DNA of 43,099 nucleotides from Nitrospiria bacterium. Lineage in GTDB: Bacteria > Nitrospirota > UBA9217. The stretch spans positions 1-43,099 of the forward strand of contig CAKKPG010000089.1 of NCBI GenBank assembly GCA_919901555.1, read 5' to 3'. The translations under genes were made by a program, and so were the position numbers. Positions 8,937-39,078 of this stretch are shown here, piece by piece; the stretch's first letter is position 1, and every line of letters starts with the position of its first letter. Below the pieces are notes generated by a model. It saw only the letters and a list, made by a program, of their open reading frames with translations. It searched no databases and was not told the DNA's origin.

Positions 8937-8937
8937 T

Positions 8938-10916: not shown

Positions 10917-11878
10917 GACAGGATCTCCTGGGAGACGAGCTCCCGGTCCATATCCCGGCCGGCGAGGATGGCGCTCAGGTTTCTGGCCTCGATGAAGCAC
11001 TGCCAGAGGTACTGGAGGATCCGCCCTATTTCCGATGCCGTCCGCGCCTCCTTCTTGAGGAGCCGAGTCATCCCCTCGATCAGGGCATGCTCCACGCTCG
11101 TGGGGGTGATGATCTCCGGCGCCGTCCCCGTGAGCCGGGCGATCAGATCGCTCGCCCCCTCCCCTGTTCTGCTGCCCGCGGCCTGGGTCAAGACCGGTTC
11201 CTCGATTGTTCCGCCGCGAAGAAAGAGGGGACGGTCCTTCATGGTCCAGCGCTGGTGCTTGTAGAGGCTCATGATGTTCCGCATGTCGATCAGCCGCCGG
11301 AAGAAGCCGCGCATGATCGGGTGCAGCGGCGAGCGGACGGTGTGTTCGAGGCAGGTGTCGGTGATGTGCTGCTCCACGGCGCCCAGGCCGCCCCGTAGAA
11401 AGAGGTCTTCCAGCCCGGAAAACCGCGGGGACATGACGATCAAGACGCGCTCGACCTCCGGCAGTACCGCAGGAACGTCGGGAAGATCGCGGAGCGTCGT
11501 TTTGACCGTCTTCGCGAGCAAGCTTGCGAGCAGGACCTCCTGCAAGCGTTTTTCATCGTTTCCCCGTTTGTAGCGGAGTGCGAGGAACAGGGTGCGCAGT
11601 TCCTGGTGCGTGAAAAAGGGCTTGAAGATGCGGCGCAGCGCGCTGTTCATCTGCAAATAGACCCACTCATACTCCCGGGCGAGCCGCTGCCACGGAATGT
11701 CCTCCGCCCGCGCCGCGATGATGTTCCGGTACCCTGTGGCGGCGAGCGATGCCAGGGGATCAGGGGAGAAAATCAGGGCGTCCCAGTCCCTCAGGAACGC
11801 GGCCGACCGCCCCTGGATGCGCGCCACGAGGTACTCGGTGGGGTAGCCGCCGTCTTCGATTTTCCGCAAGAGTTCCAT
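10913..11878 (-). CDS. atpC: A/V-type ATP synthase subunit C (V-type d-like)
   Basis: A 321-residue, largely helical, Arg- and Leu-rich protein matching the archaeal/V-type C (d) subunit that links the rotating central stalk to the proteolipid ring. Recognisable segments include YLVARIQGRSAAFLRDWD at the N-terminus, RTLFLALRYKRGND in the middle and FIEARNLSAILAGRDMDRE near the C-terminus (the last resembles the NLRLILRGK-type end of the family). The TGA overlaps the GTG of atpF. The gene starts just after the nested palindrome at 11890-12142, which separates it from the D-H-I-K-E half of the locus. Confidence 0.85.
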   Translation of the reverse strand: MELLRKIEDGGYPTEYLVARIQGRSAAFLRDWDALIFSPDPLASLAATGYRNIIAARAEDIPWQRLAREYEWVYLQMNSALRRIFKPFFTHQELRTLFLALRYKRGNDEKRLQEVLLASLLAKTVKTTLRDLPDVPAVLPEVERVLIVMSPRFSGLEDLFLRGGLGAVEQHITDTCLEHTVRSPLHPIMRGFFRRLIDMRNIMSLYKHQRWTMKDRPLFLRGGTIEEPVLTQAAGSRTGEGASDLIARLTGTAPEIITPTSVEHALIEGMTRLLKKEARTASEIGRILQYLWQCFIEARNLSAILAGRDMDRELVSQEILS

Positions 11879-23522: not shown

Positions 23523-23569
23523 CTATGTCGCAACGCTGGATACCGCGCCTGAGGCCATGGCGGACCCGC
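23523..23569. repeat. 47-bp direct repeat, copy 2, right border of HigBA segment
   Basis: Second copy of 22574-22620, with one mismatch. It is in the same reading frame of the split antitoxin-like gene as copy 1, so recombination between the copies would excise higBA and restore an intact frame. Confidence 0.85.
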
Positions 23570-23880
23570 AGATGGCGTTTGCGTTCTGCTACATTGCGAG
23601 TCATTTTGGACTGGGACTTTTGACCGACGAAGAGGCGACCGGCATATTGGAATATGTTGAGGATGAACTCGGAGAGGAAATCGGGACAGGTGAGGGCAGG
23701 TCATTCTGGCAATCAGTCTCGTTGGAAGAACTCGCGGAAGAACAGGGCGTCGAGCCGGTGTCGGCGCCTGAAGAGGTATTCGCTCTTTGGCCCGCTGGTG
23801 ACGATCCGGATGACTTGCTGAATTTTGTTCTCCATGATCGCGGCGCACGGAGAAAACCGGCCGCCGGAGGGAATGCCTGA
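23524..23880 (+). pseudogene. antitoxin-like gene, 3' fragment
   Basis: About 118 codons continuing the protein begun at 22392. After the shared YVATLDTAPEAMADP it reads QMAFAFCYIASHFGLGLL and then an acidic, Glu-rich region ending RRKPAAGGNA. An internal ATG at 23557 could still start a 107-residue product. Its stop overlaps the ATG of the PIN gene by one base (TGATGG), the coupling expected for an antitoxin-toxin pair. No family is recognised with certainty. Confidence 0.6.
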
Positions 23881-24116
23881 TGGATGCCGTTCTGCTCGAC
23901 ACGACAGTGGTGAGCCTTCTGCATCCGAAGAAAAAAGGCAACCCGCTTCGCGCCAGGTATGAGGCGCACATGACCGGGAAGGTTCTCGCCCTGAGCTTTC
24001 AGAGTGTTGCCGAGCTATGGTCGTGGGCGGGTGTCCGACCTGAGATGGCATGGAGTTACGGCCCTGATGGGTTTCACTGGGCAGGCTTTTACCTTGCCTT
24101 TTCGATATATTTGTAA
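23880..24116 (+). pseudogene. VapC-like PIN-domain toxin, N-terminal fragment
   Basis: The first ~50 residues are a PIN N-terminus: MDAVLLDTTVVSLLHP has the first catalytic Asp, and SFQSVAELWSWA carries the next acidic residue (Glu). After that the sequence leaves the family and stops at residue 78; intact VapC proteins are about 130 residues. The fragment is directly followed by a HEPN fragment with no start, which suggests that one deletion joined the two. Confidence 0.7.
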
Positions 24117-24416
24117 TATTCTGGAATACAGATAACCATACGACCGGATGAACAAAAAACGGCCGTCTACGTCAAGAACGTTGACGCCAACATTCCGTTT
24201 ACGCATGATCTCACAAACATAGCGGTGAAATCGGGTCTGCGGCTTTCTGAAGAACAAAAAGATCTCCTGGACGCGGTGACCGCGTTCAACATAAAAGCCA
24301 GATATCCCGATTATAAAAGCAGGTTTTACAGAAAGGCCACAAAAAGATTCACGGAAAACTACCTTGGGCAAATAAAGGATTTCAGAAAATGGCTCGTAAA
24401 GAAAATAAAAGAGTAA
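24117..24416 (+). pseudogene. HEPN-domain protein, lacking its N-terminus
   Basis: The frame is open from 24117 with no usable start. The C-terminal ~90 residues fit HEPN proteins: TAVYVKNVDANIPFTHDLTNIA, LRLSEEQKDLLDAVTAFNIKARYPDY, and a basic RKATKRFTENYLGQIKDFRKWLVKKIKE tail, each cited in part. The first helices, which pack the dimer, are gone. It overlaps the MNT gene by 28 bases, the normal HEPN-MNT arrangement in which HEPN is the toxic RNase and MNT the antidote. Confidence 0.7.
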
Positions 24417-24712
24417 TTCTTGGGAAGATAAAAGAGTATGTCGCGGTGCTGCGGGAAAATGGTGTCAAGGTGTGGCGGCTGTACCTTTTCGGCTCCTATG
24501 CCTCGGGCGCCGCGGCAGCGCACAGCGACATCGATCTCGCCGTCTTTTTGAACAAAGCCGATATCGACGGCTTCCGTGAAGATTTGAAGCTCATGCGCCT
24601 CAGAAGAAAAGTCGATCTTCGCATAGAGCCGCATGCGTTCGCGCGCACGGATTTCAAGCAGCCGGACCCTTTTATCAAGGAGATCGTGGCCAAGGGCATG
24701 CGGATTGTTTAG
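24389..24712 (+). CDS. mntA: MNT-type nucleotidyltransferase antitoxin
   Basis: A 107-residue minimal nucleotidyltransferase. The motif GSYASGAAAAHSDIDLAVFL (about residues 35-54) has the GSxxxG plus SDxDL arrangement of the superfamily, and KVDLRIEPHAF provides the third acidic residue. Characterised MNT antitoxins AMPylate and silence HEPN toxins. Here the HEPN partner has lost its N-terminus, so the antitoxin is likely an orphan. The start lies inside the HEPN coding region (overlap 28 bases). Confidence 0.85.
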   Translation: MARKENKRVILGKIKEYVAVLRENGVKVWRLYLFGSYASGAAAAHSDIDLAVFLNKADIDGFREDLKLMRLRRKVDLRIEPHAFARTDFKQPDPFIKEIVAKGMRIV

Positions 24713-24773
24713 CGGGGCACCGGTACGCAGTATTGCATTCTCCGTGATGCCTATTCATCATGAACGTCAGCGC

Positions 24774-25221
24774 GAAGCCGGCTGGAAGTTCACCCCGTTA
24801 GAGCAACCTATCACACTATTATATATTACTGCCATATATAACAATCTGTAGACGATGACAATCAGGTTCATGGCAAGATGCTGTGGGTAATATGCCTTGA
24901 AGATAGCAATGATGAATAGAGATAAAATTCAAGCAGTTACCACGGAAAAGGCCACGGAATATCACGGATACAATAATGAATACCTTGTTACATGAAGAGT
25001 TGACGTATAAAATTATTAAGAAGGGTCTTTTGATTGTTCCGTGTAATTCCGTGAAAATCCGTGGTAAGCAAGTAGTAAAGGGTTTTCCCCGCGTCTCGGT
25101 GGTGAATCTGGACGTTAAGGGGCATAATGGCACCCATACTTTCGTGCCAAGAGCCGACAATTATTCACTGACTCAGGACGGAATTTTCTAACGGGGTGAA
25201 GCAATTCATCTTTGGCCGGCT
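24774..25221. mobile_element. ~450-bp element with inverted ends, carrying a GxxExxY stub
   Basis: The inner ends TTCACCCCGTTAGA (24789-24802) and TCTAACGGGGTGAA (25187-25200) are perfect 14-bp inverted repeats. Just outside, AGCCGGC (left) and GCCGGCT (right) pair too, with different spacing. Inside are two copies of an ACCACGGAAAA-type repeat in opposite orientations (about 24938 and 25041). No intact gene is present; the only coding trace is a GxxExxY start. Confidence 0.5.
24976..25014 (+). pseudogene. GxxExxY family protein, N-terminal stub
   Basis: The codons MNTLLHEELTYKII match the usual start of GxxExxY proteins. The similarity ends after about 13 residues; the following open frame to 25191 is low-complexity repeat DNA. 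GxxExxY genes elsewhere are often flanked by the same ACCACGGAA repeats, and these are present on both sides here. Confidence 0.45.
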
Positions 25222-25300
25222 TTTCTTTTCAGAGGACACATGTGGCAACGGTGGAAATTTCGGGGACGTCAAGGACAAAGAAACGACCCTATTTCGTCTC

Positions 25301-25382
25301 ATGTAATTGACGGGCTCTGTAAGCTGTTATAGAGGGCAGTCCGGCGCAGGACAATCCGCTATAAGCGGCAACGGGTTAAAGA
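25301..25382. repeat. dispersed ~77-bp repeat, copy 1
   Basis: Matches 27037-27113. The shared core is ATGTAATTGA, then GGGCTCTGTAAGCTGTTATA, with decreasing similarity afterwards (ACAATnCGCTATAnGCGG). Within each copy TGTTATAG and CTATAAGCGG could pair into an imperfect hairpin. The two copies bracket the RadC-like and dinD genes. Confidence 0.65.
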
Positions 25383-25389
25383 TTTTTCG

Positions 25390-25431
25390 ATGGCGAAAAA
25401 AAAGATAAAAGAGGAACAGGGATCATTATGA
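25390..25431 (+). CDS. possible 13-residue leader peptide before the RadC-like gene
   Basis: An ATG at 25390 opens a short frame, MAKKKIKEEQGSL, whose TGA overlaps the ATG of the RadC-like gene (ATGA at 25428-25431). The ribosome site for the larger gene (GAGGAACAGGG) lies inside this peptide. It could couple translation, but such short frames also arise by chance. Confidence 0.25.
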   Translation: MAKKKIKEEQGSL

Positions 25432-26039
25432 GAGTAAAGCTCACCAAAGCGCAAAGGATACGGGTACTCAATTCAGTCGATGTTTACGAGGTCATGCAGC
25501 GCATCCTGCTTCGCGAGAACAAGATCGACCGCAACAAGGAGCATTTCTGGGTCGTCTGCCTGTCCAACAGCAACAAGATCCTGCTGATCGAGCTGGTCAG
25601 CCTCGGCACCATGAAGAAAAGCCTCGTGGACCCCACGGAGGTGTTCAGCTTCGCGCTCCAGAAGCGGGCGGCCCAGTTGATCATGGTCCACAACCATCCG
25701 GGCGGGTCATTGCAGCCTTCGCCGGAGGACACGGACATAACCGACCGCATGTACCAGGTCGGCCTGTTTTTGGACCTCCCGGTGATCGATCATCTTATTA
25801 TCACGGAAAGAAAATTCTACAGCTTCAAGGACTCGGGGCTTCTCGCGGAGCTGAGCAAGAGCGAGAAGTATGTGCTCAAATACAAGAAGGAAGAGCAGCG
25901 GATAAGGAAAGAGGGCGAGAAAAAGGGTCTTTTGAAAAAAGCCGTTGAGATGGCGAGAGCTTTGAAGAAGAAAGGGATTGACATGAAGGTGATAGCCGAA
26001 GTTTCCAAACTGTCGATAAAGCAAATTGAAAAAATGTGA
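25428..26039 (+). CDS. RadC-like JAB-domain protein with Rpn-like C-terminus
   Basis: A 203-residue protein. The JAB/MPN domain (residues ~1-130) has the metal site MVHNHPGGSLQPSPEDTDITD, cited in part, where the HxHPxG...SxxD pattern gives the zinc ligands. This is the RadC family, often carried by mobile elements and defence islands, with proposed roles in DNA processing that remain unclear. The N-terminal helix-hairpin-helix seen in chromosomal RadC is absent. The C-terminal ~60 residues are Lys-rich and end VIAEVSKLSIKQIEKM, similar to tails of Rpn/PD-(D/E)XK transposase-like proteins. A good ribosome site precedes the ATG. Confidence 0.8.
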   Translation: MRVKLTKAQRIRVLNSVDVYEVMQRILLRENKIDRNKEHFWVVCLSNSNKILLIELVSLGTMKKSLVDPTEVFSFALQKRAAQLIMVHNHPGGSLQPSPEDTDITDRMYQVGLFLDLPVIDHLIITERKFYSFKDSGLLAELSKSEKYVLKYKKEEQRIRKEGEKKGLLKKAVEMARALKKKGIDMKVIAEVSKLSIKQIEKM

Positions 26040-26119
26040 ATCACGTCAGCGAAAAATAAACATGCTGTGAACCAACGTCCCCCGAGATGTTCACAATGGT
26101 TTTGAAGAGGAAGGCTTTC

Positions 26120-26745
26120 ATGAAAAAAGAGATTATTATATCGCTGAGCAAAACATTCGAGGAATCGGCGTATGAACAGGACGGTGTCGAATACTGGCTT
26201 GCTCGCGACCTTCAGGTTTTACTTGATTACAGCGAATGGCGCAACTTCGCACAGGTTATTGACAAGGCAAAAACCGCCAGTAAAAATGCTGGCCAGAATG
26301 TTTCCGACCATTTTGTTGATGTCAACAAAATGGTGGAACTTGGGTCAGGAGCTCAAAGAGAAGTTGATGATATAATGCTGACTCGCTACGCTTCTTATCT
26401 GATAGCGCAGAATGGTGATCCTCGTAAAGAACGGATAGCCTTTGCGCAGAGCTACTTCGCGCTCCAGACGCGCAAGCAGGAACTTCTGGAAGAGCGAATT
26501 GCGCTTACCGAACGTCTTCAGGCGAGGGAAAAGCTGGTTACCACCGAGACCGAGCTGTCCAAAATCATTTATGATCGCGGCGTCGATGGCCAAGGATTCG
26601 GGCGCATACGGAGCAAAGGAGATCAAGCGCTGTTCGGCGGTCATACGACGATAAAAAACTTGAGCGTCGCGTAAAAACGCATGATAAAAAGCTCGTTAAC
26701 GGCGCCCAAAAGCTCAAGAGCATTGACGGCGTCGATGAGCATTAG
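26120..26745 (+). pseudogene. dinD: DinD-like protein, frameshifted and internally deleted
   Basis: The first ~165 codons are a clear DinD: ATG 26120 follows GAGGAAGG, and GVEYWLARDLQVLLDYSEW, NVSDHFVDVNKMVELGSGAQREVDDIMLTRYASYL and IAQNGDPRK are family-defining (cited in part). E. coli DinD is an SOS-induced inhibitor of RecA filaments. After LFGGHTT the frame shifts. The next frame (26641-26745) reads DDKKLERRVKTHDKK, resembling the KKVERRL stretch near the usual C-terminus, so about 60-80 residues of the middle were deleted together with the frame change. The +0 frame ends at 26674 with seven unrelated residues. Confidence 0.75.
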
Positions 26746-27163: not shown

Positions 27164-28294
27164 ATGATTTACCTTGACCACAATGCGACGACGCCGGTGC
27201 TGCCGGAGGTACTGGAGGCGATGATGCCGTACCTCACGACGGAATGGGGCAATCCGTCGAGCGCGTACAAGTTCGGTGCGAAAGTGAAGTCGGTTATAGA
27301 GACAGCGCGGGAGCAAGTAGCGGCTTTGATCGGGGCACACCCGTTGGAGATCATCTTCACTTCTTGCGCAACGGAGAGCAACAACGCCGCGATTCACGCC
27401 ACGCTCAAGGCGAATCCAAACAAGCGGCACATCGTCACGTCGGCAGTCGAACATTCCTCGGTGCTGAACTATTGCATGGCGCTGGAAAAGGAGGGCTATC
27501 GCGTCACATACCTGCCCGTTGACCATGACGGCTTGCTGAAACTGGCCGACCTCGAAAACGCCATCGGGGATGAGACTTCCGTCGTCTCGCTGATGTGGGC
27601 GAACAATGAGACGGGTGTGTTGTTTCCCGTGAAGGAAATTGCTGAGATTTGCCGGTCACGCGGAGTGCCGTATCACTGCGACGCGGTGCAGGCGGCGGGT
27701 AAAATCGAGATGGATGTTCGGAAACTTCCAGTTGATTACCTATCGCTGACAGGTCACAAGTTTCATGCGCCGAAAGGAATTGGCGCGCTATACGTCCGCC
27801 GAAAAACTCCGTTCTCACCGCTGATTCACGGGGGCCACCAAGAGCGCAATCTGCGCGGTGGCACGGAGAGCGTCCCGCTGATTGTCGGCATCGGCAAAGC
27901 CGCCGAGGCGGCTCGCCGTCACTCGCCCGACTACGAAAAGAAAGTCCGGCCGTTGCGTGACAACTTGGAGGAAGGCATGTTGAGTTCCATTCCAAACACG
28001 GAACTGAACGGCCACAAGACGCAGCGGCTGGCCAACACGACCAACATTACCTTTCACGGAATCGAATCAGAAGCGCTGCTCATCCTCCTTGACCAGGAAG
28101 GCATCTGCGCCTCATCCGGCTCCGCCTGTCTTGCCGATTCCGACGAACCCTCGCACGTCATCAAAGCGATGAAGCCAGCATCGGCAGCCTCACGGCAGAT
28201 GATCCGCTTCTCTCTTGGGAAAGCCAATTCGGCAGCGGATATCAAAGCTACAGTGACTGCGGTTCAGCGAGTGACTGAGTTGCTCCGTGCATAG
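27164..28294 (+). CDS. dndA: cysteine desulfurase DndA/IscS-like
   Basis: A 376-residue class V PLP-dependent aminotransferase. It begins with the family pattern YLDHNATTPVLPEV. The PLP lysine is in SLTGHKFHAPKG (Lys199), and the mobile-loop cysteine that carries the persulfide is in SSGSACLADSDEPSHV (Cys322). It releases sulfur from cysteine and in Dnd systems feeds DndC. The short loop and NifS-type signature also fit housekeeping IscS, but the position next to dndC-dndD favours DndA. Unusually it lies on the opposite strand, converging with the dnd operon (20-base gap). No Shine-Dalgarno site is visible; TGCTAAATT lies just before the ATG. Confidence 0.88.
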   Translation: MIYLDHNATTPVLPEVLEAMMPYLTTEWGNPSSAYKFGAKVKSVIETAREQVAALIGAHPLEIIFTSCATESNNAAIHATLKANPNKRHIVTSAVEHSSVLNYCMALEKEGYRVTYLPVDHDGLLKLADLENAIGDETSVVSLMWANNETGVLFPVKEIAEICRSRGVPYHCDAVQAAGKIEMDVRKLPVDYLSLTGHKFHAPKGIGALYVRRKTPFSPLIHGGHQERNLRGGTESVPLIVGIGKAAEAARRHSPDYEKKVRPLRDNLEEGMLSSIPNTELNGHKTQRLANTTNITFHGIESEALLILLDQEGICASSGSACLADSDEPSHVIKAMKPASAASRQMIRFSLGKANSAADIKATVTAVQRVTELLRA

Positions 28295-28314: not shown

Positions 28315-29313
28315 CTACGTAAAAATAGCTTCGGCGAAGGTGGGAAAGTACCGGTACAACTCAGCGTACCGCTTGATGTCGGAAGGTGGAACACCGGGAA
28401 GAGTTAAAGCAGCCGCTGCAGCTTGTGGAAGCTGGGCGTTCAGATGGCGCATCTCTTTCATAGTGAGGCAAGGCACTTCGATTACATATGGTTCTTCTCC
28501 AAAATGAACAAAGTTAAGCTCACCGAACGAGCAGGCATCGAACTTTTGTTGCTCGCCAGCCTCGATGAAAATTCCTCCAACTGTCAGTATCAATGCGCCA
28601 TCGCTATGAATAAAATTGAAAACCTGCCGATAAACTATCTTCTTTTCCGCTGGCACAAGGGAGTTCCTAGCTGAGAGGGCTTCCTCAATCCCGCTATGAA
28701 TCAACCTGCGCGAAATCTTCGCAAGCCCCTTGCCCCGAAGCTCGCTACCCGCAATCTCCGGGGGCACACTGTTGCCAACTCGCTTGCGAAATCCGCGCAG
28801 ACGATATTCGTCGAGATTAAATGGCAAGCCCGTGTCTGCGGTGTATTGTTGGCGCGTCGCTTCGTCGGGGTCACGCTCAACATGTGCATTCATAGAAACG
28901 ACCAGCACACTGCCTGAGCATGCTCTGGCGCATACTGAGGTAACATCGGACAACACCGCTTCGTCCAGTTTCACGTCGTAATCAAGCCACACAATTGTCT
29001 TTGCCTGCCAATCCAATTCGGGTAGCACTTCGGAGGCTGGGCGGCAATCGAGGCGCACGCATTTGTAGGGCTTATTGAACTGAAAGCATTCCTCAGCATA
29101 CGCATCTTTTTCGATGCTCAGCATGTCATTCATCCCAAGAGCGCGATGGAATAAATGAAAGTCGCTGAAGTAAATAGAGCCGAAGCCCACGTAGCGGTAC
29201 GTTTCGATTTTGCCGAACGGATAGAGGCGACGGAAGGCTTCACAAAGCATCTTTCGCTCGATTGCTTTTGCGGGACGCAGTGAGTAGTTGATCTGACGAT
29301 AGCTACCGGCCAT
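28315..29313 (-). CDS. Dnd-associated 332-residue protein, possible methyltransferase-like fold
   Basis: The last gene of the dnd operon. I do not recognise a named family. Residues ~38-150 look like a Rossmann alternation: YRYVGFGSIYFSDF (a glycine-rich first strand and loop), DMLSIEKD (second strand ending in an acidic residue), CVRLDCRPASEVLP, then TIVWLDYD (strand four, similar in place to the catalytic motif of methyltransferases) and GSVLVVSMNAH. This order suggests SAM or nucleotide binding, but is inference. The C-terminal ~150 residues are of unknown fold (VGGIFIEAGEQQKF, PYVIEVPCLTMKEMRHLN). Its ATG overlaps the stop of the GHKL gene by one base (TAATG), so the two are strongly coupled and probably form one functional unit. 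Confidence 0.6.
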   Translation of the reverse strand: MAGSYRQINYSLRPAKAIERKMLCEAFRRLYPFGKIETYRYVGFGSIYFSDFHLFHRALGMNDMLSIEKDAYAEECFQFNKPYKCVRLDCRPASEVLPELDWQAKTIVWLDYDVKLDEAVLSDVTSVCARACSGSVLVVSMNAHVERDPDEATRQQYTADTGLPFNLDEYRLRGFRKRVGNSVPPEIAGSELRGKGLAKISRRLIHSGIEEALSARNSLVPAEKKIVYRQVFNFIHSDGALILTVGGIFIEAGEQQKFDACSFGELNFVHFGEEPYVIEVPCLTMKEMRHLNAQLPQAAAAALTLPGVPPSDIKRYAELYRYFPTFAEAIFT

Positions 29314-30683
29314 TACTCTTCCCCCTCATACTTCATGAAATACTCAAAGGTTTTTTCGCCCACAGCAATGAACGTTTGGACCTTGAGAAGCTGCTTTGCT
29401 TTCTCAACCTCGACCAAGGGCTTGCTGTACTGAATCTTCTGCATCCTCGGTCCGGGGGGCATGGGGCTGGGTTGGGGAGCAACAAAAGTCGGGGTAACCG
29501 TAAGCGCGTCGGTTCGCTTAGCTTCCGCACTTTGAATCGCTTGGTCGAGAGTCCCATCTGTGCTATCCCCGCTTTCAAATGCCGCTCTTTCCTTGGCCAA
29601 GTTGGACAGAAACGTGAGGACAGGCTTGGAAATCTCAATCATCTCCTGCTGCACGTTCTTGTAAACGGGAGAATCTACGTCAACGCCCGTTTTCGTGGTC
29701 GTCCACGGCAGCAGAGCAGCATTATCTGAGTCGAAATAAGCGTAACCGCGGAAATACGCAAAGTCTGGATGGTATTGGCGCATGCCGTGTGCCTGTCCCC
29801 AGATTGTCGTTGCTGTCTGGTCGGCGCGTATCACCAGACGTCCGTTACAGAACACATACCAGCCGCCTTCGTGCAAGCTCCTTTCGGCAACACCCGCAAA
29901 AAGCTTCACTTTCACAGGTGGGCCCGGCTGCCCGTCGAGAACCGCACGGGGGTATGTCTTTTCTACATACGCAGGTTTCAACTTGTCCGACACGAATAGC
30001 AACTGAGGCTCATGGCGCAGTGGGATCGTGTTGACCGTAATCGCTAGTCCTCGATCCATGCTTAGTGCGTGAGCAAGGCTCATCTCCTGCTTCAATCGCG
30101 TTAGGAAATTATCCAGGGCAAAATTTTCAGCTACTGTGTCGTAGAGTTGGTTGATCTCAATACGTGTGCCGATTTCCTCAGGCGACACGTTGGTAAGGTT
30201 TTCCTCAACGTTGCGAAACTCAAAGTGCCATTCGTCCGCCTTTTCGGGTTCGCCCATTGCCTTCCACTGTTCAACATCAATGTCCATGTCGAACCGAGAT
30301 GAGCTCGTAGTGGAGTAAACAGTAAAGTGCCGTCCCAGCTTAAAGAAAGTGCGCTTCATTCCAACTCCGAATTGTCCCACCGAGCCAGGCGTCAGGGGAG
30401 CGTCCTTTGGGCGACCAAACCGGAACGCATAATTCCGCGCAATATCAACAGGAATGCCGCCGCAGTTGTCAGCTATCTTGAGATGGTTTCTGTCAAGTTC
30501 CACGCGAACCCAGAGGCCATTGAAGTCTCCGTTTGCTTGCATGCGCCTTGCGCCGTCGACCGAATTGTCCACCAAGTCTAGGATAGCGCGAGTGAGCGGT
30601 ATATCCCGCGTGAGCATGTAAATGAAGAACTCCTTGGTCGGTGAGGCATTGATGCGCTTTGGGTCTTGTGGAGTTTCTGGCAC
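29313..30683 (-). CDS. GHKL (Hsp90/MORC-like) ATPase in the dnd operon
   Basis: A 456-residue protein with an N-terminal Bergerat ATP-binding fold. The N box is ILDLVDNSVDGARR (Asn at about residue 40), the G1 box is IADNCGGIPVDIA (about 70-82), and the lid region is GQFGVGMKRTFFKLG (about 103-117). These match HATPase_c_3 proteins such as MORC, MutL-like and Hsp90-like ATPases, which close as ATP-driven clamps. The second half (about 240-456) includes a GWYVFCNGRLVI strand seen in transducer domains of this class and a helical tail rich in Lys and Gln. No nuclease motif is evident. It starts 14 bases after the DndE-HerA gene and overlaps the next by one base. Confidence 0.85.
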   Translation of the reverse strand: MPETPQDPKRINASPTKEFFIYMLTRDIPLTRAILDLVDNSVDGARRMQANGDFNGLWVRVELDRNHLKIADNCGGIPVDIARNYAFRFGRPKDAPLTPGSVGQFGVGMKRTFFKLGRHFTVYSTTSSSRFDMDIDVEQWKAMGEPEKADEWHFEFRNVEENLTNVSPEEIGTRIEINQLYDTVAENFALDNFLTRLKQEMSLAHALSMDRGLAITVNTIPLRHEPQLLFVSDKLKPAYVEKTYPRAVLDGQPGPPVKVKLFAGVAERSLHEGGWYVFCNGRLVIRADQTATTIWGQAHGMRQYHPDFAYFRGYAYFDSDNAALLPWTTTKTGVDVDSPVYKNVQQEMIEISKPVLTFLSNLAKERAAFESGDSTDGTLDQAIQSAEAKRTDALTVTPTFVAPQPSPMPPGPRMQKIQYSKPLVEVEKAKQLLKVQTFIAVGEKTFEYFMKYEGEE

Positions 30684-30697
30684 AGTTTAGCCTCCGG

Positions 30698-32179
30698 TTA
30701 TTTTCCTGCGTCCCGCCAGAATTGCCTCGCTGCGCCGGTGATGAGCTTACCTTGCAGGCGCAGGGCGGCTTCGGCTTTCTTGAGCTTCTGGTGAATGACG
30801 CTGCCGAGGATCAGCTTTTGATCGGCGGGACTCAGAGATTGCGGTGAAAAGTGAACGCCGCACTCGGCAAGCTCGGCGAAGTTTGTTTCGTTGGTGCCGG
30901 TGGTGAGGAACTTGTCGGCGTCCTGCGAGGCGAGCCAAACGGGAAAGCCCCACGAACGACCTTGCCGAGCGAGTGAGCTGAGCAGGCCAGCTTTGTGTTC
31001 CTTCGGCAGCAACAAGTGCGCTTCGTCCACGAACAGCACCATCTTGAGCGGCTGGATGCCGTTCTTGACGGCCAATTGCTGACTCAATTTTTTGATCAGA
31101 AAGTTCAGGATGAGGGCGACGGCCAGCGCTTTGGTGTCGCTGTCATTGCCGAACTCCTTGAAGTCCACCACCAGCGACCGGCTGAGCCACTGCTCCGGAC
31201 TAACGCCTTCCTGTGCCGGCGCGAACAGGTTGCAATCCACAATCCGCTTCACGATTGAAAGAGGCACGCCGGTCACGTCGTTCCGCTCCAACTCCGCGAG
31301 CAGGCTGTCGAAGTCTGGGGCTGATAGTTGCTGGTAGGCATCGCTCAAGGCTTGCTGCTGATTGGCGCCTAACTGCGGGGCGAATGCACGGATGAGCGAG
31401 GCTATCTCGTTTGCGATCTGGGCGTTCACCGCGGGATTCGGGTCCCGGTAAAGCGGGTTGATCGGCAGGGCCTGCCGGATTAGCCGCACATGCTGTGCCC
31501 CGGTCTGATCGAGAAAACGCTTCCGGTTCTCGCGCTGCTGCTTGTTAGTGGGGTCGTCTTCCAACTCGCCCTTCATGTCGAAAAACACGAAGCGGACACC
31601 GACATTGGATAGTTGCGCCAAAAGGTCGAGTGCGAGTTGGCTCTTTCCGGAACCGGGTTGGCCGGAAATCACCAATAGACCGTTAGATGTACCTGGCCCG
31701 TTGATGCTCCATTCAGGAGCGTCAATCAGCACTTTGAGTTTTACCTCTTCCTCAACGACCGGCATCGGCGGGACAGCTTTCAGACCGGCGGCACTACCAA
31801 ATTCAGCGTAGGTCAGTTTGAGCAACGCAGAGACGAAGTTGGCTTGGTCGTTGCCTGACTCCTCCCAAATCTGCTTCAGCCGCTGGCAGCCGAATTCGAA
31901 GTGACGCCGAAACTCCTGCCGATAGCCGCCTTCGTCAAGAGTTTGGCCCGCGCGGTGATTCAGGGCGGCATGCACAACATCTTTAAGTTCGTCGCCGACG
32001 ACTTGCTCATCGTTGAGCGTCACACCATTGGCGTCCTTGGGCTTAAATTCAGACGGCACACCTTCGCCCAAGGCGAGAAATAAGGCGGCTCGGCCTACCA
32101 CGGCCTGATTGCGCGCACCCACGCGTGAAAAAACGTTTTCGATGAACTCGCGAGCGGCGCTACTTGTGTCAAACTTCAT
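30698..32179 (-). CDS. DndE-like domain fused to a HerA/FtsK-type ATPase
   Basis: A 493-residue two-domain protein. Residues ~1-122 resemble DndE: an N-terminal helix, then VVGRAALFLALGEGVP, a polar loop (NGVTLNDEQVVGDELKDVVHAAL, in part), and YRQEFRRHFEFGCQRLKQIW, where DndE has its RxHLxRGxxxL stretch. After a linker comes a HerA-family P-loop ATPase with Walker A GQPGSGKS (173-180), a DMKGEL strand-two motif, Walker B MVLFVDEAHLLLP (about 380-392) and an RQGRSWGFPVWLASQ sensor-type motif. HerA/FtsK ATPases form hexamers that move along DNA. DndE normally binds nicked DNA as a separate ~110-residue protein and is otherwise absent here, so this fusion probably supplies both functions. Starts at ATG 32179, overlapping the 91-residue gene by 11 bases. 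Confidence 0.8.
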   Translation of the reverse strand: MKFDTSSAAREFIENVFSRVGARNQAVVGRAALFLALGEGVPSEFKPKDANGVTLNDEQVVGDELKDVVHAALNHRAGQTLDEGGYRQEFRRHFEFGCQRLKQIWEESGNDQANFVSALLKLTYAEFGSAAGLKAVPPMPVVEEEVKLKVLIDAPEWSINGPGTSNGLLVISGQPGSGKSQLALDLLAQLSNVGVRFVFFDMKGELEDDPTNKQQRENRKRFLDQTGAQHVRLIRQALPINPLYRDPNPAVNAQIANEIASLIRAFAPQLGANQQQALSDAYQQLSAPDFDSLLAELERNDVTGVPLSIVKRIVDCNLFAPAQEGVSPEQWLSRSLVVDFKEFGNDSDTKALAVALILNFLIKKLSQQLAVKNGIQPLKMVLFVDEAHLLLPKEHKAGLLSSLARQGRSWGFPVWLASQDADKFLTTGTNETNFAELAECGVHFSPQSLSPADQKLILGSVIHQKLKKAEAALRLQGKLITGAARQFWRDAGK

Positions 32180-32444
32180 AGGTGATCGCCTTTTCCCGCG
32201 TCTCGTTCTCCGCGCGCAGTCGCTGGTAGGCTTCGCGCGTTACGCGGAAATACTCCTCGTAGGTTGCGCGGTCAGCCTCCAGCATTTTTGCGGCTTTACG
32301 GGCGGCGTGGCGGAATTGAGCCCGTGTCTGCCAGTCCAAAGTGCTGTGAAAGATTTCCTCACGTATGATGTACTCGATCATCACCGCGTCCGCGGGACTG
32401 CATCCGGTGTCTTCGACAATCATCTCATCGTAATCAGCGCTCAT
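32169..32444 (-). CDS. small Dnd-associated protein of unknown function
   Basis: A 91-residue, mostly helical, charged protein (starts MSADYDEMIVEDTGCSPADA; contains EYIIREEIFHSTLDWQTRAQF). No catalytic motif is visible and it does not show the DndE pattern. A strong ribosome site (GGAGG) precedes the ATG. It lies between dndD and the DndE-HerA gene, 18 bases after the former and overlapping the latter by 11, so it is a true part of the operon. It could be an adaptor or a regulator of the complex. Confidence 0.65.
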   Translation of the reverse strand: MSADYDEMIVEDTGCSPADAVMIEYIIREEIFHSTLDWQTRAQFRHAARKAAKMLEADRATYEEYFRVTREAYQRLRAENETREKAITYEV

Positions 32445-32462
32445 GACTTTCCTCCAATGCGG

Positions 32463-34529
32463 TCATAAATCGTGACCAAAGTAATCGTTGGAAATGCGCA
32501 CTTCATAGTCGGTGCTCTCCGGTTTGCCGTGAGGGTGCAGCGTGTACACCCGCGCCAGCCGATCTCCGATGCGTTTGAACAGCGGGCCTTCCGGATCAAC
32601 TTCCGAGTTGGTCGTAAGAATGATGGATTGATGACCGCTGAGATAAAGCTGGTCGAGCGCGTTGGCACGAACCTCTTTATCGAGGCGAGCCAACGGCGTG
32701 TCCACCACGAGCGGCGGCACAAGCTTGGCCAATCGGCGCAGTGCCTCGTAGAACGCCAGCATGCGAACCTGCCGTTGACCAGCGGAGGTGTTGGTTTCCT
32801 CCCACGTAACGCGTTTGCCGTCGCGGCGAATGAGCAAGCACTGCCAGTGGCTGTCAAACTCCATTCCCAGGAACTCCCTCTTCCGTTCCGTGATTTCCGA
32901 CCACAGCTCGCCCACGTGCTCCGAAATTTTCTTCCGCATCCGGATAGCAGCGCGACTCCGGATTTCACCAGCCGCTTCGCGATAACGCGCCGCCAGTGAG
33001 GCAAGGCTTTGGCCTTTCTCGGCTTTCTCGACAATCTCCCGCTGATTAGTTTCCTGGCGCTTCAGTTCGCCAAGTTCGACATCGCGCCGCGAGACCTCCG
33101 CAGTAATCTCAGCGAGGCGCTTGGTGATTTGCTCTCGGTTGGAAATAAGTTCGCCGCGCTTCTGATGCAATTCTGTGCCGCGCTTAAAGGCCGCAGTGTT
33201 TTGCTGCATCTGCCTCAACTTTTGATCCAATTCGCGCAATTCGGCGTCCATCCGTTCGATGCTGACGCACATCTCGGCCAAGTCGCGCAACGAACCAGCA
33301 GCCGTGCCGAGGCGGGCGCGAATCTGGGCGCTCGTGTCGTTACGGTCAGCGACAAAAACCCGGTCGGGCATTCCATCGGGGGGCGGATGAAACAAACGGC
33401 GCAAGGCATCTTCGAGTCGTTTGATGTAAAACGCCTCGACGTCTGGTTGTAGCGCGAATTCTGACGGTGCGCTACCGAAAACGTCTTCTTTGACTTGAGG
33501 GATCTTCGGCTCAACGGTAGATTTTGCGCCTTCCCATTCACGCCGCCGTTCCTCTGAGAACAAGTAGTCGTGGAGTTCCTTGCGATATTTACCCAGCAGT
33601 GAAACGGGAATTGCCAACTCCCAAGCTCCGGTGAGCTTTGCCTCCAGGTCGGCCTTGATTTTGGTGAGTTCGTTCCGTCGTTCCTGTGCGCGTTGAAGCT
33701 CATCAGGATCAACCGCGCCAAGCGTCTTCAGGTCGTCCTCAACCTCTTGCAATTCCGCATCAACCTCATGCAAGTCCCGTTCGAGGCTATCCTGTTCCTT
33801 GCGGCGCGCTTTCAGATGCCCCTCAACTCGGAGCACATCAGCAGACAGGTCAGCGAGTTTCGTAGCTGGGTCGGAGCCGCTGGTTGAATTGAAAACGCGT
33901 GGAATCTTTTGCTGAATCAATCCTCGGAGATCATTTTCCAGTTCGCCGTAGGTCCACAGCCCCAAGATGCGGCTCACGCCCTCGACGATGTCTTGTTGCC
34001 CCAAGTTGATGCTTTGACTTCGCTCCGCATCGAAAAAGAAAAAGCGCGCCAGATGCCGTGGCAAGAATACATCGCGCAATTTTTGGATGACCTGTTCGTC
34101 CTCAATCAAGCCAGGTGTGTCCGAACGCTGAGCAGAAGAATGCCAAATGGGTGAAGAATTAGGGCGATGCCTGATTTCGCGCACTAACTCAACCCTACGG
34201 CTGCCACCGCTTTTGTCGTCGCGCAGTGAAACTGCGACTTTGAGACGGACAGTATCTTGGCCTTCAGCTTGCGCGCGTCGGTTTAGCGATCTGTCGAAAA
34301 GGAAACGGGTTGCATCTGAGCCGGTCTCGACACGCTTCAAGTCACCGACGCCGCTTTCACCGACAACGGCCAAATAGAGTGCCCTCAGGAGATGGGTTTT
34401 GCCCGCTCCGTTCTTTCCGCCAACCAGAACGCCGCAACGGCCTTCCAGGCTGCCGAAATTCAACGTGTGCTCGCCATAGAACGGGCCAAAATTTTCGAGC
34501 GTGAGCGAGTCGATATAGACTTCCGGCAT
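32463..34529 (-). CDS. dndD: DndD, SMC/Rad50-like ATPase of DNA phosphorothioation
   Basis: A 688-residue ABC-type ATPase. The N-terminal half has SLTLENFGPFYGEHTLNF and Walker A GGKNGAGKT (about 37-45). The ABC signature is NTSAGQRQVRM (about 580) and Walker B LVVDTPLARLDKE (about 607-620), followed by the switch region IILTTNSEVD. Between these lie several hundred residues of coiled coil with charged heptads. No CxxC zinc hook is seen. In Dnd systems DndD uses ATP for DNA opening or nicking, supporting sulfur insertion by DndC. The length is close to known DndD proteins (about 660-690). The start is one base after the stop of dndC. Confidence 0.92.
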   Translation of the reverse strand: MPEVYIDSLTLENFGPFYGEHTLNFGSLEGRCGVLVGGKNGAGKTHLLRALYLAVVGESGVGDLKRVETGSDATRFLFDRSLNRRAQAEGQDTVRLKVAVSLRDDKSGGSRRVELVREIRHRPNSSPIWHSSAQRSDTPGLIEDEQVIQKLRDVFLPRHLARFFFFDAERSQSINLGQQDIVEGVSRILGLWTYGELENDLRGLIQQKIPRVFNSTSGSDPATKLADLSADVLRVEGHLKARRKEQDSLERDLHEVDAELQEVEDDLKTLGAVDPDELQRAQERRNELTKIKADLEAKLTGAWELAIPVSLLGKYRKELHDYLFSEERRREWEGAKSTVEPKIPQVKEDVFGSAPSEFALQPDVEAFYIKRLEDALRRLFHPPPDGMPDRVFVADRNDTSAQIRARLGTAAGSLRDLAEMCVSIERMDAELRELDQKLRQMQQNTAAFKRGTELHQKRGELISNREQITKRLAEITAEVSRRDVELGELKRQETNQREIVEKAEKGQSLASLAARYREAAGEIRSRAAIRMRKKISEHVGELWSEITERKREFLGMEFDSHWQCLLIRRDGKRVTWEETNTSAGQRQVRMLAFYEALRRLAKLVPPLVVDTPLARLDKEVRANALDQLYLSGHQSIILTTNSEVDPEGPLFKRIGDRLARVYTLHPHGKPESTDYEVRISNDYFGHDL

Positions 34530-34530
34530 G

Positions 34531-35829
34531 TCAGCTTTTCGCTCCTGCGGTCTGGTTTTCCAAGTCGTCCTTCAGGATATTGAGCAAATCGTCGGGGAGG
34601 CCGTGGGCGCGGTGGCTTTCGCTGTATTCCTCGACCTTGGCGAGCATGCGACGCAACGTTTCGGCGTCGATGCCTTTCTCGCGGGCCACTTCTTCTTCCA
34701 TCTCACGCAGGCGGTTCAGTTCATTCAGGTCGGTGCTCATAATGACACCTCGTTGTTTGTTGACGATGCGGGCGACGCCGCGGCCGTCGTCAGGGTCGCG
34801 TGCCGCCTTCCACATCTGCTGGATAAGTAGGAGTTCCTCAGGGCTGATGAGTTGCAGGCCGACTTCCTCCTGTAGCGCCAACAATTGCTTCAGAAGCTCG
34901 CGCCGGGCCGGAATTAAGAGCGGGCCAGGACCGTCGTTGCCGTTCATGCGGCGGTTGTCGCGTTTGCCGTTGGCGGGGTCGCGGTAGAAAAGGAGTTTTT
35001 CGCGGAAATCAATCAGCTTCTCCATGCGTTCATCGCCGCTGGCGAGCAAGCCTTCACTGGTCTTGTCGCGGTCCACGACCGTGCACGTCCAGCAACCGAA
35101 GCGGCTGTTACCGCAGCTTGGCGTGCTGGTGTCGATTTGAATTGGACATTCGCCGTTGCTGGCGCTTGCGTAGAGTTTGTAGAGTGCGCGATTGTCTCCA
35201 CCCCAAGGATTGGGTTTCTGGAGCAAGTAGGCCCAGACTTCTTCAGTCGTCAGAAATTCGATCGGATTGGACACCCACACGCGGGGCAAATCGGGATGAC
35301 GGCACAACGCATTGCGCGTTTCACGACCGGCCATCGTCTGGGCGCGGGTAGCGCTTTCCTCGCGGCGCGCGCCCAGGTGGAGAATTGCCTCACCCCATTG
35401 ACCAAGGCGCTGCTGAACAAAGATGTTGACGGGATCGATCTTCATCCGCTGCGTGCACCAGCGAAAGACGCGGTTCGGCGGCGGATAGCCGCGGCCGATA
35501 ATGTTGACCCAAAATGATTCTTCCGTCGTGGGTTTCAAAAGGTTGACATCAATGTTGATGTCATTTTGCTGCGAGCACCGCTGCATTTGCCGCAGTGTGC
35601 CCTCTACCATCTCCACGATGGCCGGAATCTCCACGCGCGTGTCGGTGCAAACGACGGAGATTGGTTTTGTTCGTTCAGCAGGAGGCAGTGAGAGAGCGGC
35701 ATCAAACACAAGCGAGGCCAGCATCGTGCTGTCCTTGCCGCCGCTAAACCCAACTAGCCATGGCCGGTTGTCATCCAAATAGAGCTGGCGTAGGGATTTT
35801 TTGATATCTTGATATGCGGTGGCGACCAT
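34531..35829 (-). CDS. dndC: DndC, PAPS reductase-like sulfurtransferase of DNA phosphorothioation
   Basis: A 432-residue PAPS-reductase/ATP-pyrophosphatase family protein. The PP-loop is FSGGKDSTM (about 28-36). Cysteines that can hold the 4Fe-4S cluster are in FRWCTQRMK (about 126), GECPIQ (about 230) and SCGNSRFGCWTC (about 240-251). LHLGARREESATRAQTM and VSNPIEFLTTEEVWAYLL are also typical of DndC. It takes persulfide from DndA and exchanges sulfur for a non-bridging oxygen in DNA. First gene of the operon. The promoter at 35837-35866 puts the -10 box seven bases before the ATG. No DndB regulator is found upstream. Confidence 0.94.
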   Translation of the reverse strand: MVATAYQDIKKSLRQLYLDDNRPWLVGFSGGKDSTMLASLVFDAALSLPPAERTKPISVVCTDTRVEIPAIVEMVEGTLRQMQRCSQQNDINIDVNLLKPTTEESFWVNIIGRGYPPPNRVFRWCTQRMKIDPVNIFVQQRLGQWGEAILHLGARREESATRAQTMAGRETRNALCRHPDLPRVWVSNPIEFLTTEEVWAYLLQKPNPWGGDNRALYKLYASASNGECPIQIDTSTPSCGNSRFGCWTCTVVDRDKTSEGLLASGDERMEKLIDFREKLLFYRDPANGKRDNRRMNGNDGPGPLLIPARRELLKQLLALQEEVGLQLISPEELLLIQQMWKAARDPDDGRGVARIVNKQRGVIMSTDLNELNRLREMEEEVAREKGIDAETLRRMLAKVEEYSESHRAHGLPDDLLNILKDDLENQTAGAKS

Positions 35830-37363: not shown

Positions 37364-38161
37364 ATGGCTGGTGAAAAAGGCACTAAAATAAACCAACTTC
37401 TCAAGAAGTGGCCGTCAGGAACGGTTGCTGTACTGCGCTGGCTGGAAAAGCAGGGCGTGTATCAGCAGCTTGTGCATGAGTACGAGAAATCCGCCTGGAT
37501 ACTCCGCGTGGGCCAGGGCGCGTTTGCGAAATCCGGCGACAAAATAGACTGGCCGGGCGGGCTATTTGCGCTCCAGAATCAATTAGCCCTTCCCATATAT
37601 GCGGGCGGCAAGACAGCGCTCCAACTGCAGGGCTACGCGCATTTTCTTCCGTTGGGGAAAGGCGGTACGGTTTATCTTTTCGGCCCGGCCGAGACAAAGC
37701 TGCCTGCCTGGTTTACGCAATACCAATGGGGCCTGAATATCCGTTTTGCCTCAACACGTCTTTTTGCGGATGAAGCGTCCGTCGGGCTGACAACGCGGGA
37801 TATGGGAGCGTTCTCGATCAGGGTTTCGGCGCCTGAGCGGGCGATGATGGAAGTCCTGTATTTCGTGCCCAAGGAACAGTCGTACGAGGAAGCGCGGCTC
37901 CTGATGGAGGGGCTTTCGACGCCGCGCCTCAAGATAGTGCAGACCCTTCTCGAAAGCTGCACCTCCGTGAAGGTAAAACGTCTCTTTATGGTGCTGGCGG
38001 AAAGCTGTGGTCATGCCTGGGTCAGGAAGCTCGATGTATCAAAAGTGAATTTCGGCAAGGGCAGACGCATGCTTGTCAGGGGCGGAAGGCTCGACACGAA
38101 ATACAATATTTCGGTGCCAGAAGCGGGCGCCGGCCAAGGCGCACCTGGAAGGCGGGCATGA
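37364..38161 (+). CDS. abiEi: AbiEi-like antitoxin of a type IV toxin-antitoxin system
   Basis: A 265-residue AbiEi-family protein. Residues ~1-70 are a winged helix (INQLLKKWPSGTVAVLRWLEKQGVYQQLVHEYEKSAWI, in part). The rest is the AbiEi_3-type domain with LALPIYAGGKTALQLQGYAHFL and a C-terminal GRLDTKYNISVP strand. These proteins repress their operon and prevent toxicity of AbiEii. The stop overlaps the abiEii ATG by 4 bases (ATGA). It belongs to the defence island next to the dnd locus. It looks complete. Confidence 0.88.
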   Translation: MAGEKGTKINQLLKKWPSGTVAVLRWLEKQGVYQQLVHEYEKSAWILRVGQGAFAKSGDKIDWPGGLFALQNQLALPIYAGGKTALQLQGYAHFLPLGKGGTVYLFGPAETKLPAWFTQYQWGLNIRFASTRLFADEASVGLTTRDMGAFSIRVSAPERAMMEVLYFVPKEQSYEEARLLMEGLSTPRLKIVQTLLESCTSVKVKRLFMVLAESCGHAWVRKLDVSKVNFGKGRRMLVRGGRLDTKYNISVPEAGAGQGAPGRRA

Positions 38162-39078
38162 GAAAAAGCCCGTATTTCGAACAGGCCCTACTGATGCTTC
38201 GGGTCATCCCGCAAGTGACGGCTGAGGAGTGCTTTGCGCTCAAGGGCGGCACAGCTATCAATCTGTTTTTGCGCGACATGCCGCGTCTGTCCATCGATAT
38301 AGACCTGGCATATCTGCCTCTTGATGAAGAACGTGACAAGGCCCTCGCGAACATCGGCAAAGCGCTCACCCGCATTGCGGCGGCGATCAAGAAGGCGATG
38401 CCGGGAATCAAGATCCAGGAGAGCCGGGCGCATGGGTCAAAACTGATCAGCAAACTTGTCGTGGAGAACGGATCGACGAGGATAATAATCGAGCCGAATG
38501 AAGTGATCCGGGGAGCGGTTTGGGCGCCGGTGGAGCGTGAGTTGACAAAGCGCGCTGAGGAAACGTTCGAACTATCAGTCACGGCCAGGTCCCTCTCGAC
38601 CGCTGATCTATACGGTGGGAAGATTTGCGCGGCGCTTGACCGACAGCATCCTCGGGATCTTTTCGACATCAAGGTCCTTTTGGATAACGAAGGGATCACT
38701 GATAAAATACGAAAGACTTTTGTTGTGTATCTTGCAAGTCATGACCGGCCGATGAGCGAGTTGCTTGATCCTGCGCGGAAAGATGTACGGCAAACCTATG
38801 AAAGCGAGTTTGCCGGCTTGACGGCTGAGGATATCCGATACGAGGACCTTGTTGCGGCAAGAGAAACGCTGATTAAAACCCTGCGGCGGGATTTAACGGC
38901 TGCGGAAAAAGGTTTTCTCGTAGCTCTCAAGGAAGGACAGCCGAAGTGGGACCTTCTCGGATTAAAGGGGATAGAGAAGCTGCCTGCCATCCAGTGGAAA
39001 CTCATGAACATCCGGAAGATGAAAAAAGAAAAGCATGCTGCGGCAATTGAAAAGCTGAAAGCGAAGCTGGGGTTGTAG
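38158..39078 (+). CDS. abiEii: AbiEii-like nucleotidyltransferase toxin
   Basis: A 306-residue AbiEii/AbiGii-family nucleotidyltransferase toxin. The NTase core has LKGGTAINLFL (about 23-33), the acidic pair in LSIDIDLAYL (about 40-49) and later DLYGGKICAALDRQHPRDLFDIKVLL (in part), the conserved motif of the family. Characterised members use NTPs to modify tRNA, stopping growth when a phage infects. The product is intact, including a basic helical C-terminus. Translation is coupled to abiEi by a 4-base overlap. Confidence 0.9.
   Translation: MRKSPYFEQALLMLRVIPQVTAEECFALKGGTAINLFLRDMPRLSIDIDLAYLPLDEERDKALANIGKALTRIAAAIKKAMPGIKIQESRAHGSKLISKLVVENGSTRIIIEPNEVIRGAVWAPVERELTKRAEETFELSVTARSLSTADLYGGKICAALDRQHPRDLFDIKVLLDNEGITDKIRKTFVVYLASHDRPMSELLDPARKDVRQTYESEFAGLTAEDIRYEDLVAARETLIKTLRRDLTAAEKGFLVALKEGQPKWDLLGLKGIEKLPAIQWKLMNIRKMKKEKHAAAIEKLKAKLGL

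Follow-up and report, generated by a model that had tools for sequence, protein, structure and literature searches.

A predicted DNA phosphorothioation operon whose GHKL ATPase and methyltransferase-like genes form a separable cassette shared with cytosine methyltransferases

On balance, the operon described here is best read as a two-part self-labelling defence system, in which a core that would place phosphorothioates (PT) is joined to an interchangeable effector cassette that would act on unmarked DNA. The cassette consists of a MORC-like GHKL ATPase and a methyltransferase-like protein, MT35, and this pair is a separate, mobile unit. One defence module seems to serve different self-labels, because elsewhere the pair accompanies 5-methylcytosine (m5C). 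The operon lies in a 43,099-nucleotide stretch of DNA from a Nitrospiria bacterium, referred to below as the window. Its genes and the convergent neighbouring gene are as follows.

34531-35829, minus strand: dndC, PAPS-reductase-like sulfurtransferase of PT modification, 432 aa (TIGR03183, PADLOC DndC)
32463-34529, minus strand: dndD, ABC-type ATPase, 688 aa (PADLOC DndD/PbeC)
32169-32444, minus strand: p91, optional small 91-aa ORF between dndD and the fusion gene
30698-32179, minus strand: DndE::HerA fusion, DndE DNA-binding domain plus HerA/FtsK-type ATPase (PF08870, HerA/AAA_10)
29313-30683, minus strand: MORC-like GHKL ATPase, gene 1 of the putative effector cassette (PF13589)
28315-29313, minus strand: MT35, class I SAM-methyltransferase-like protein, 332 aa, gene 2 of the putative effector cassette (PF20553)
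27164-28294, plus strand: convergent dndA-like gene for a NifS-type cysteine desulfurase, the probable source of sulphur (TIGR03402, PADLOC DndA)

An ORF check of the window returned the six minus-strand genes with the positions and spacing given in the first-pass annotation, which had overlooked the convergent desulfurase gene. dndC and dndD are separated by 1 base and dndD and p91 by 18 bases; p91 overlaps the DndE::HerA gene by 11, a gap of 14 bases follows before the GHKL gene, and the GHKL and MT35 genes overlap by 1. When the operon was scanned for promoters and terminators, sites were no more numerous than in shuffles; one −35/−10-like pair lies directly ahead of dndC. An AbiE toxin-antitoxin pair is found near the operon.

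Profile searches and motif checks agreed with the earlier reading of a Dnd modification operon. DndC scored 387.7 bits against NCBIfam TIGR03183 (cut-off 290.4) and matched PADLOC DndC at E 5e-128, with the SGGKDS loop present. DndD matched the PADLOC DndD/PbeC models (E about 1e-60), its match to TIGR03185 being below cut-off; Walker A, the SAGQ signature and Walker B are present, and a CxC motif was not found in the protein. In the fusion, residues 3-103 correspond to Pfam DndE (PF08870) and residues from about 158 to 432 to HerA-type ATPases, with Walker A at 173, Walker B at 381-387 and RQGR at 405, so that HerA is indeed joined to DndE in one protein, encoded beside DndD. DndC, DndD and DndE therefore occur together, with DndE supplying the N-terminal portion of the fusion, and the cysteine desulfurase of a Dnd system is provided by the convergent NifS/DndA-type gene. 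The latter is just over the cut-off of NifS TIGR03402, below that of the NCBIfam DndA model, and DndA by PADLOC (E 2e-149). With this complement the core would be expected to make PT.

For the GHKL protein, a match to HATPase_c_3 (PF13589, E 4e-11) was obtained, and the GHKL (Bergerat) motifs are intact in the window protein and conserved across an alignment of 76 homologues. Its AF2 model (pLDDT 91.7) gave Foldseek matches to Hsp90, SMCHD1, MORC2, MORC3 and GyrB, and the nearest solved sequence is MORC4; the protein has the GHKL and S5 ATPase regions of MORC/paraMORC proteins. No sign of a nuclease was seen at its C-terminus, where a short tail is strongly conserved at two residues only, G442 and F446.

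MT35 is a full-length member of PF20553 (Methyltransf_35; 344 bits against a curated cut-off of 27, E 1e-102). Fourteen positions, including G43, G45, E68 and D111, are identical in 72 aligned sequences, and the SAM-binding glycines were found by motif check. The AF2 model (pLDDT 93.9) matched class I methyltransferases in Foldseek at TM-scores of about 0.3, values so low that only the Rossmann core can be said to be matched. A hidden nuclease in MT35 was rejected because the predicted fold is that of a class I methyltransferase. Fold and SAM-site residues together fit a catalytically active enzyme, for which DNA or a nucleic-acid-bound molecule is favoured as the putative target over a small metabolite.

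The known restriction arms of Dnd systems were then sought. As had been claimed, dndB (PF14072) was not found anywhere in the assembly, with positive controls. There was likewise no sign of DndFGH, as judged genome-wide from a search for DndH that had no positive control, and of the window proteins covered by the scan, HerA alone matched DndFGH models, its match being to part of DndH. Neither PbeA nor more than one ABC ATPase was found among ten window proteins scanned, so the PbeABCD combination of a PbeA helicase-nuclease, a second ABC ATPase and a DndE-like pair is not present there. GHKL and MT35 were rejected as Pbe or DndF/G/H proteins because neither window protein matched any PADLOC model; this agrees with the earlier view of an effector arm other than DndFGH, and sets it apart from Pbe as well. 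A separate endonuclease, as in Type II restriction-modification, was not recognised among the scanned proteins of the window operon or of a prophage cassette (L139, below). Some other GHKL–MT35 loci have an added HARE-Mrr enzyme.

A gene-neighbourhood survey showed that the window gene order recurs in five MAGs labelled Deltaproteobacteria, Acidobacteria and Verrucomicrobia (L021-L025), and is therefore not a chance arrangement. The convergent desulfurase has the identical placement in all five and in a further relative, L008, and is likely to be the dndA of the window operon. The 91-aa ORF is the variable element: p91 had no family match in profile searches, its only homologues are in L025 and in G001, which belongs to the same family, and it was not found in L008 or L021-L024. 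Since it is present among related operons only in the window and L025, p91 was rejected as a core component.

The first-pass annotation had proposed a single built-in complex; comparison with related loci supported this only in part, and not as an indivisible unit. L008 has a DndC-DndD-DndE::HerA core 75-78% identical to that of the window without GHKL–MT35, and no GHKL of the window protein's family was found in its genome. Among nine DndE::HerA fusions collected without GHKL as bait, the cassette is present at two. Core and cassette trees for the window operon type are in conflict (AU p 9e-13 and 2e-30), and the two histories are significantly different. One dedicated six-protein PT machine, with DndE::HerA, GHKL and MT35 co-evolved as a unit, would account for the gene order common to the five other MAGs, but is highly improbable given cores without cassette, cassettes without core, the conflicting trees and the optional p91.

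To see which genes the cassette accompanies, the collection was scanned with the GHKL protein as bait, since the MT35 alignment was too diverse, and the nearest 80 of 328 GHKL relatives were taken as the locus sample. At 78 of the 79 loci where both genes could be seen, they are neighbours on the same strand and either overlap or lie no more than 6 bases apart. The context is dndC at 38 of the 80 loci, an m5C methyltransferase at 32 and a PAPS-reductase-like gene alone at 3; of the other 7, 4 have other Dnd-associated genes and 3 are cut by contig ends. In loci other than that of the window, the pair is next to DndFGH (6) or to PbeA (14). Occurrence of the last three genes of the operon without dndC/dndD had been named at the outset as evidence against the first-pass reading: GHKL and MT35 do so occur, at the 32 loci with an m5C methyltransferase instead and on 73 of 75 viral contigs, and DndE::HerA does not in the loci read. 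On the GHKL tree, about 7 switches between PT (Dnd) and m5C context were counted, at least 4 of them forced by supported branches, compared with about 28 when labels were shuffled. Vsr was found at 18 of the 32 m5C loci and at none of the loci without m5C. The pair therefore tracks the presence of a mark and not m5C repair, and a role in m5C mismatch repair was rejected, Vsr being found in no Dnd locus and few phage loci.

Viral contigs carry the cassette as well. Of 75 with GHKL, 73 have an m5C methyltransferase, 69 have MT35 and 9 have Vsr. The prophage form comprises three genes (GHKL, MT35 and m5C methyltransferase) with no recognisable nuclease; in L139 these three (7938-11495) are the only genes separating a 344-aa portal-like gene from the next long gene of the phage, and the triad is 99.9% identical in two E. 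coli genomes. Hotspots of antiviral systems are a known feature of P2 phages (PMC9122126). The triad is also present in the inovirus PfAC20; its methyltransferase was listed as an incomplete system in an earlier report (PMC11878078), yet has the GHKL and MT35 genes directly upstream.

In the proposed two-part system, the convergent cysteine desulfurase would supply sulphur, which DndC would activate and then transfer. Scanning and binding of DNA would fall to the DndD ATPase and DndE, and the HerA ring attached to DndE would drive the machine along the DNA, so that PT is placed on the host genome. The GHKL protein, like the clamps of MORC, MutL and Hsp90, may close on DNA in an ATP-dependent manner and together with MT35 act on DNA without the mark. 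The pair would serve whichever modifier adjoins it, be it an m5C methyltransferase, DndCDE, DndCD-DndE::HerA or a lone PAPS-reductase-like protein. On the computed gene content, motifs, folds, near-constant pairing, varied modifiers, repeated partner change and prophage carriage, the pair would restrict foreign DNA, with the host protected by the mark, and is probably antiviral. Several observations weigh against the two-part defence reading. The DndFGH and PbeA systems beside which the pair is found at other loci have their own restriction arms, so the pair may be accessory to restriction rather than its effector. DndE::HerA cores are mostly without the pair, a nuclease was not recognised among the operon's proteins, and the Foldseek TM-scores of MT35 are low. 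A possible form of it, offered tentatively, is restriction that is indifferent to the mark and needs no nuclease, in which GHKL–MT35 would sense absent self (m5C on a base or PT in the backbone) and block the DNA through clamp and methylation.

Other readings are less probable. The pair could be an accessory of modification, the GHKL clamp loading or recycling the modifier or MT35 adding a second mark, with restriction elsewhere. The class I fold with invariant SAM-site residues and a position nearly always near a modifier, also beside loci with DndFGH or Pbe, fit such a helper, which we nonetheless judge unlikely: phage triads would be modification-only, window-type operons would be left without a restriction arm, and one and the same helper would be needed by DndCDE and by m5C methyltransferases, although their chemistries have nothing in common. 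Less likely still is abortive infection, in which loss of or tampering with the mark would free MT35, so that a tRNA, nucleotide or protein essential to the host is methylated and growth stops. Stand-alone suicide effectors have been proposed for Dnd neighbourhoods (PMC10853773), and the lack of a recognised nuclease, the resemblance of MT35 to a catalytic methyltransferase and the AbiE pair nearby are in keeping with this, but a constant DNA modifier and a DNA-clamp-like ATPase point to DNA as the molecule sensed.

A restriction arm is commonly regarded as specific for a single mark. In the present case a single pair of genes has switched several times between two chemically unrelated marks, which opens the question of how a defence module can recognise 'self' without recognising any particular modification. 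The pair is also a candidate partner for some of the m5C methyltransferases of phages and prophages that have been classed as orphans or as incomplete restriction-modification systems, such as that of PfAC20. Present defence finders probably miss GHKL–MT35, because MT35 matched no PADLOC model and the GHKL proteins tested gave no match or matched MzaB alone, weakly.

A DndE::HerA/FtsK fusion has been published as HerA clade 3 (Rakesh, Aravind and Krishnan 2024, PMC10853773, citing earlier work), and in that Dnd variant, as in the window, the PT operon encodes a DndE joined to HerA/FtsK next to an ABC ATPase of DndD type. The main text of that paper makes no mention of GHKL, gyrase, histidine kinase, MutL, MORC or HATPase, and a literature search on GHKL proteins in Dnd systems, or beside Dcm and an O-methyltransferase, found no published description of GHKL–MT35, as a PT-system partner or otherwise. 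The DndFGH and PbeABCD arms resemble the pair in being partners of DndCDE and can each share a locus with it, but have recognised nuclease domains (PMC10853773), whereas GHKL and MT35 are without sequence match to the PADLOC Dnd/Pbe models. MORC/paraMORC proteins (Iyer, Abhiman and Aravind 2008, PMC2292703) are GHKL and S5 ATPases encoded alongside cytosine methylases and Vsr in mobile restriction-modification operons, and DNA looping has been predicted as their activity; that article does not mention Dnd, and its passages covered here showed no MT35 partner. On a Microvirga plasmid (L006) the pair lies inside a DISARM operon, in support of a defence role, with an MmeI-type gene on one side of the GHKL and O-methyltransferase genes and drmA on the other, whereas the SNF2/DrmA helicases, DrmB and DrmC of DISARM are absent from the window operon. 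VcSduA, a GHKL ATPase with a Shedu nuclease, was shown to be anti-phage (PMC12137116), which likewise favours the defence reading; it carries its own PD-(D/E)xK nuclease, whereas the window GHKL protein has only its short C-terminal tail.

The six minus-strand open reading frames at 28315-35829 were reproduced with the positions and spacing of the first-pass annotation. In profile searches, DndC scored above its NCBIfam cut-off, and the other matches were to DndD, a DndE domain fused to a HerA-type ATPase (DndE::HerA), a GHKL ATPase, and a 332-residue PF20553 (Methyltransf_35) protein annotated as a putative O-methyltransferase, here MT35; the key motifs of the operon proteins were all found. 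The seventh gene of the set and the neighbouring genes are:

27164-28294, plus strand: cysteine desulfurase, convergent with the operon
37364-39078, plus strand: AbiEi/AbiEii type IV toxin-antitoxin pair, on the operon's upstream side
23557-26674, plus strand: further defence-island-like genes: a DinD-type BRO-N protein (match to PADLOC candidate PDC-S13) and, identified by eye, PIN-like, nucleotidyltransferase (MNT)-like and RadC-like ORFs

The desulfurase was narrowly above the NifS and below the DndA cut-off of NCBIfam, and was called DndA by PADLOC. The reported absence of dndB held for the whole assembly (96% complete) in a search whose controls were detected; DndH gave no match there in a search run without a positive control.

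The GHKL alignment was scanned against the GTDB genome collection, giving 328 relatives; the analysis continued with the best 80. Among these 80, five loci (L021-L025, from MAGs labelled Deltaproteobacteria, Blastocatellia, Verrucomicrobia and Acidobacteria) share the order DndC, DndD, DndE::HerA, GHKL, MT35 with a convergent desulfurase, and their five operon proteins are 52-82% identical to those of the window. The 91-residue ORF was present in just one of the five relatives. A homologue of this ORF was seen elsewhere in the host's family (L201, G001:C85:609-776), and the ORF may exist outside this operon. As the fusion was missing from all 20 sampled host relatives, 12 of them from the host's own family, lateral transfer is suggested.

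Genes in the 80 loci were labelled by custom profiles derived from window sequences and those of the relatives. Among these best 80 of 328, which are the top-scoring relatives of one query and so represent the surroundings of this GHKL rather than the whole family, dndC was found in 38, a 5-methylcytosine (m5C) methyltransferase in 32, a PAPS-reductase-like gene with no other Dnd genes in 3, and none of these in 7. Four of these seven (L057, L088, L091, L093) have Dnd-associated genes of other kinds (DndFGH, PbeA, HARE-Mrr, a DndD-like ATPase), and three (L052, L055, L076) lie close to contig ends. The m5C loci speak against GHKL and MT35 as fixed Dnd components. The fusion occurs in 14 loci (L099 and L100 being near-copies), PbeA in 14 and DndFGH parts in 6, with representatives of the last two labels confirmed by PADLOC. 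A HARE-HTH plus Mrr nuclease gene, its label confirmed by Pfam, is present at L099:5478-6269 and in nine more Dnd/Pbe loci, frequently immediately upstream of GHKL; Vsr, in 18 loci, is without exception alongside m5C. In 78 of the 79 loci where both genes are visible, MT35 directly follows GHKL, with an overlap or a gap of no more than 6 bases. Minimal triads of a PAPS-reductase-like gene, GHKL and MT35 were noted in Clostridia-type genomes (L061:8965-12261, L062:8989-12261, L068:299-3574), with no DndD or DndE recognised nearby. On the Microvirga plasmid pR24_2 (L006:1-17586), GHKL-MT35 lies within a DISARM operon in which Vsr and an m5C methyltransferase are also encoded.

In a phylogeny of 85 GHKL proteins, built by a quick tree search and including a few long-branched rows, the Dnd/m5C/PAPS label changes 7 times, compared with about 28-29 changes for shuffled labels; supported branches force at least 4 changes of the Dnd label. 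The window, L021-L025 and the Pbe-type L026 form a supported Dnd group (99) nested among m5C loci. The weakest label is that of Sinorhizobium L005, assigned m5C from a Dcm-like gene a few kilobases away.

The GHKL-MT35 cassette and the DndC-DndD-DndE::HerA core are separate, and their histories differ even inside this operon type. In L008, from the same phylum, the core is 75-78% identical to that of the window, with the desulfurase again convergent, a DndB-like gene downstream, and neither GHKL nor MT35 adjoining; no GHKL of this family was found in that genome. The fusion was also used as query, against the bias of a GHKL bait. The cassette adjoined one of three full fusions in genomes of the host's phylum (that of the window), one of five in 395 Bacteroidota genomes (where one fusion, picked for its cassette, was the search centre), and not the single fusion of a Methylorubrum megaplasmid: two of nine, both already known. 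The core tree groups L022 with L025 (100/100), whereas the cassette tree sets the window, L021 and L022 against L023-L025 (100/100). In AU tests, a grouping of the window with L021 and L022 was rejected for the core (p 9e-13), as was a pairing of the window with L023 for the cassette (p 2e-30); these groupings were picked after identities had been seen, so the p values are optimistic, and the likelihood gaps are large (274 and 453 units). The single built-in complex of the first-pass annotation is made very unlikely by the core without cassette in L008, the two-in-nine count and the conflicting trees.

A scan of viral contigs gave 75 loci, with m5C in 73, MT35 in 69 and Vsr in 9; an apparent DndC in L127 lies outside the cassette. 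One of these loci is:

L139:7938-11495: GHKL-MT35-m5C cassette of P2-like prophages, also in E. coli NZ_CP196708 and NZ_CM169495

In L139, GHKL, MT35 and the m5C methyltransferase are the sole genes between P2-type terminase/portal-like genes, recognised from size and sequence, and the next long phage gene. L139 DNA was found in 2 of 5,426 E. coli genomes, where the products of the triad are given as ATP-binding protein, O-methyltransferase and DNA cytosine methyltransferase. No nuclease was recognised in the three-gene cassette, PADLOC recognised neither its GHKL nor its MT35, and PHROGs lists both families as of unknown function. The triad also lies at one end of the filamentous Pseudomonas inovirus PfAC20 (L202:280-3711), whose methyltransferase is described by its authors (PMC11878078) as an incomplete defence (R-M) system.

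For MT35 (AF2 pLDDT 93.9), the best PDB matches were class I SAM methyltransferases (probability 1.00, TM ~0.3, the core alone being matched). Residues Y10, R13, K16, R20, Y41, G43, G45, D51, E68, N80, P82, W109, D111 and E287 are invariant in 72 of 72 aligned sequences. The GHKL model (pLDDT 91.7) matched Hsp90, SMCHD1, MORC2 with DNA, MORC3 and GyrB, with MORC4 the nearest solved sequence. No additional nuclease domain was seen in either structure.

DndACDE relatives insert phosphorothioate, and by analogy we infer that the window core does likewise. The cassette fits a module dependent on a neighbouring DNA mark, though on no particular one. Its carriage by temperate phages and a DISARM operon favours a defence role, with restriction as the simplest reading, in which the mark would label self and the ATPase clamp, together with MT35, would target unmarked DNA.

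In the main texts searched, no description was found of GHKL-MT35 as a shared partner of phosphorothioate systems and m5C methyltransferases, or of its repeated change of mark; the novelty of both is provisional. Two elements were already known: the fusion of DndE to HerA (PMC10853773), and the occurrence of MORC/paraMORC ATPases in R-M operons together with cytosine methylases and Vsr (PMC2292703).
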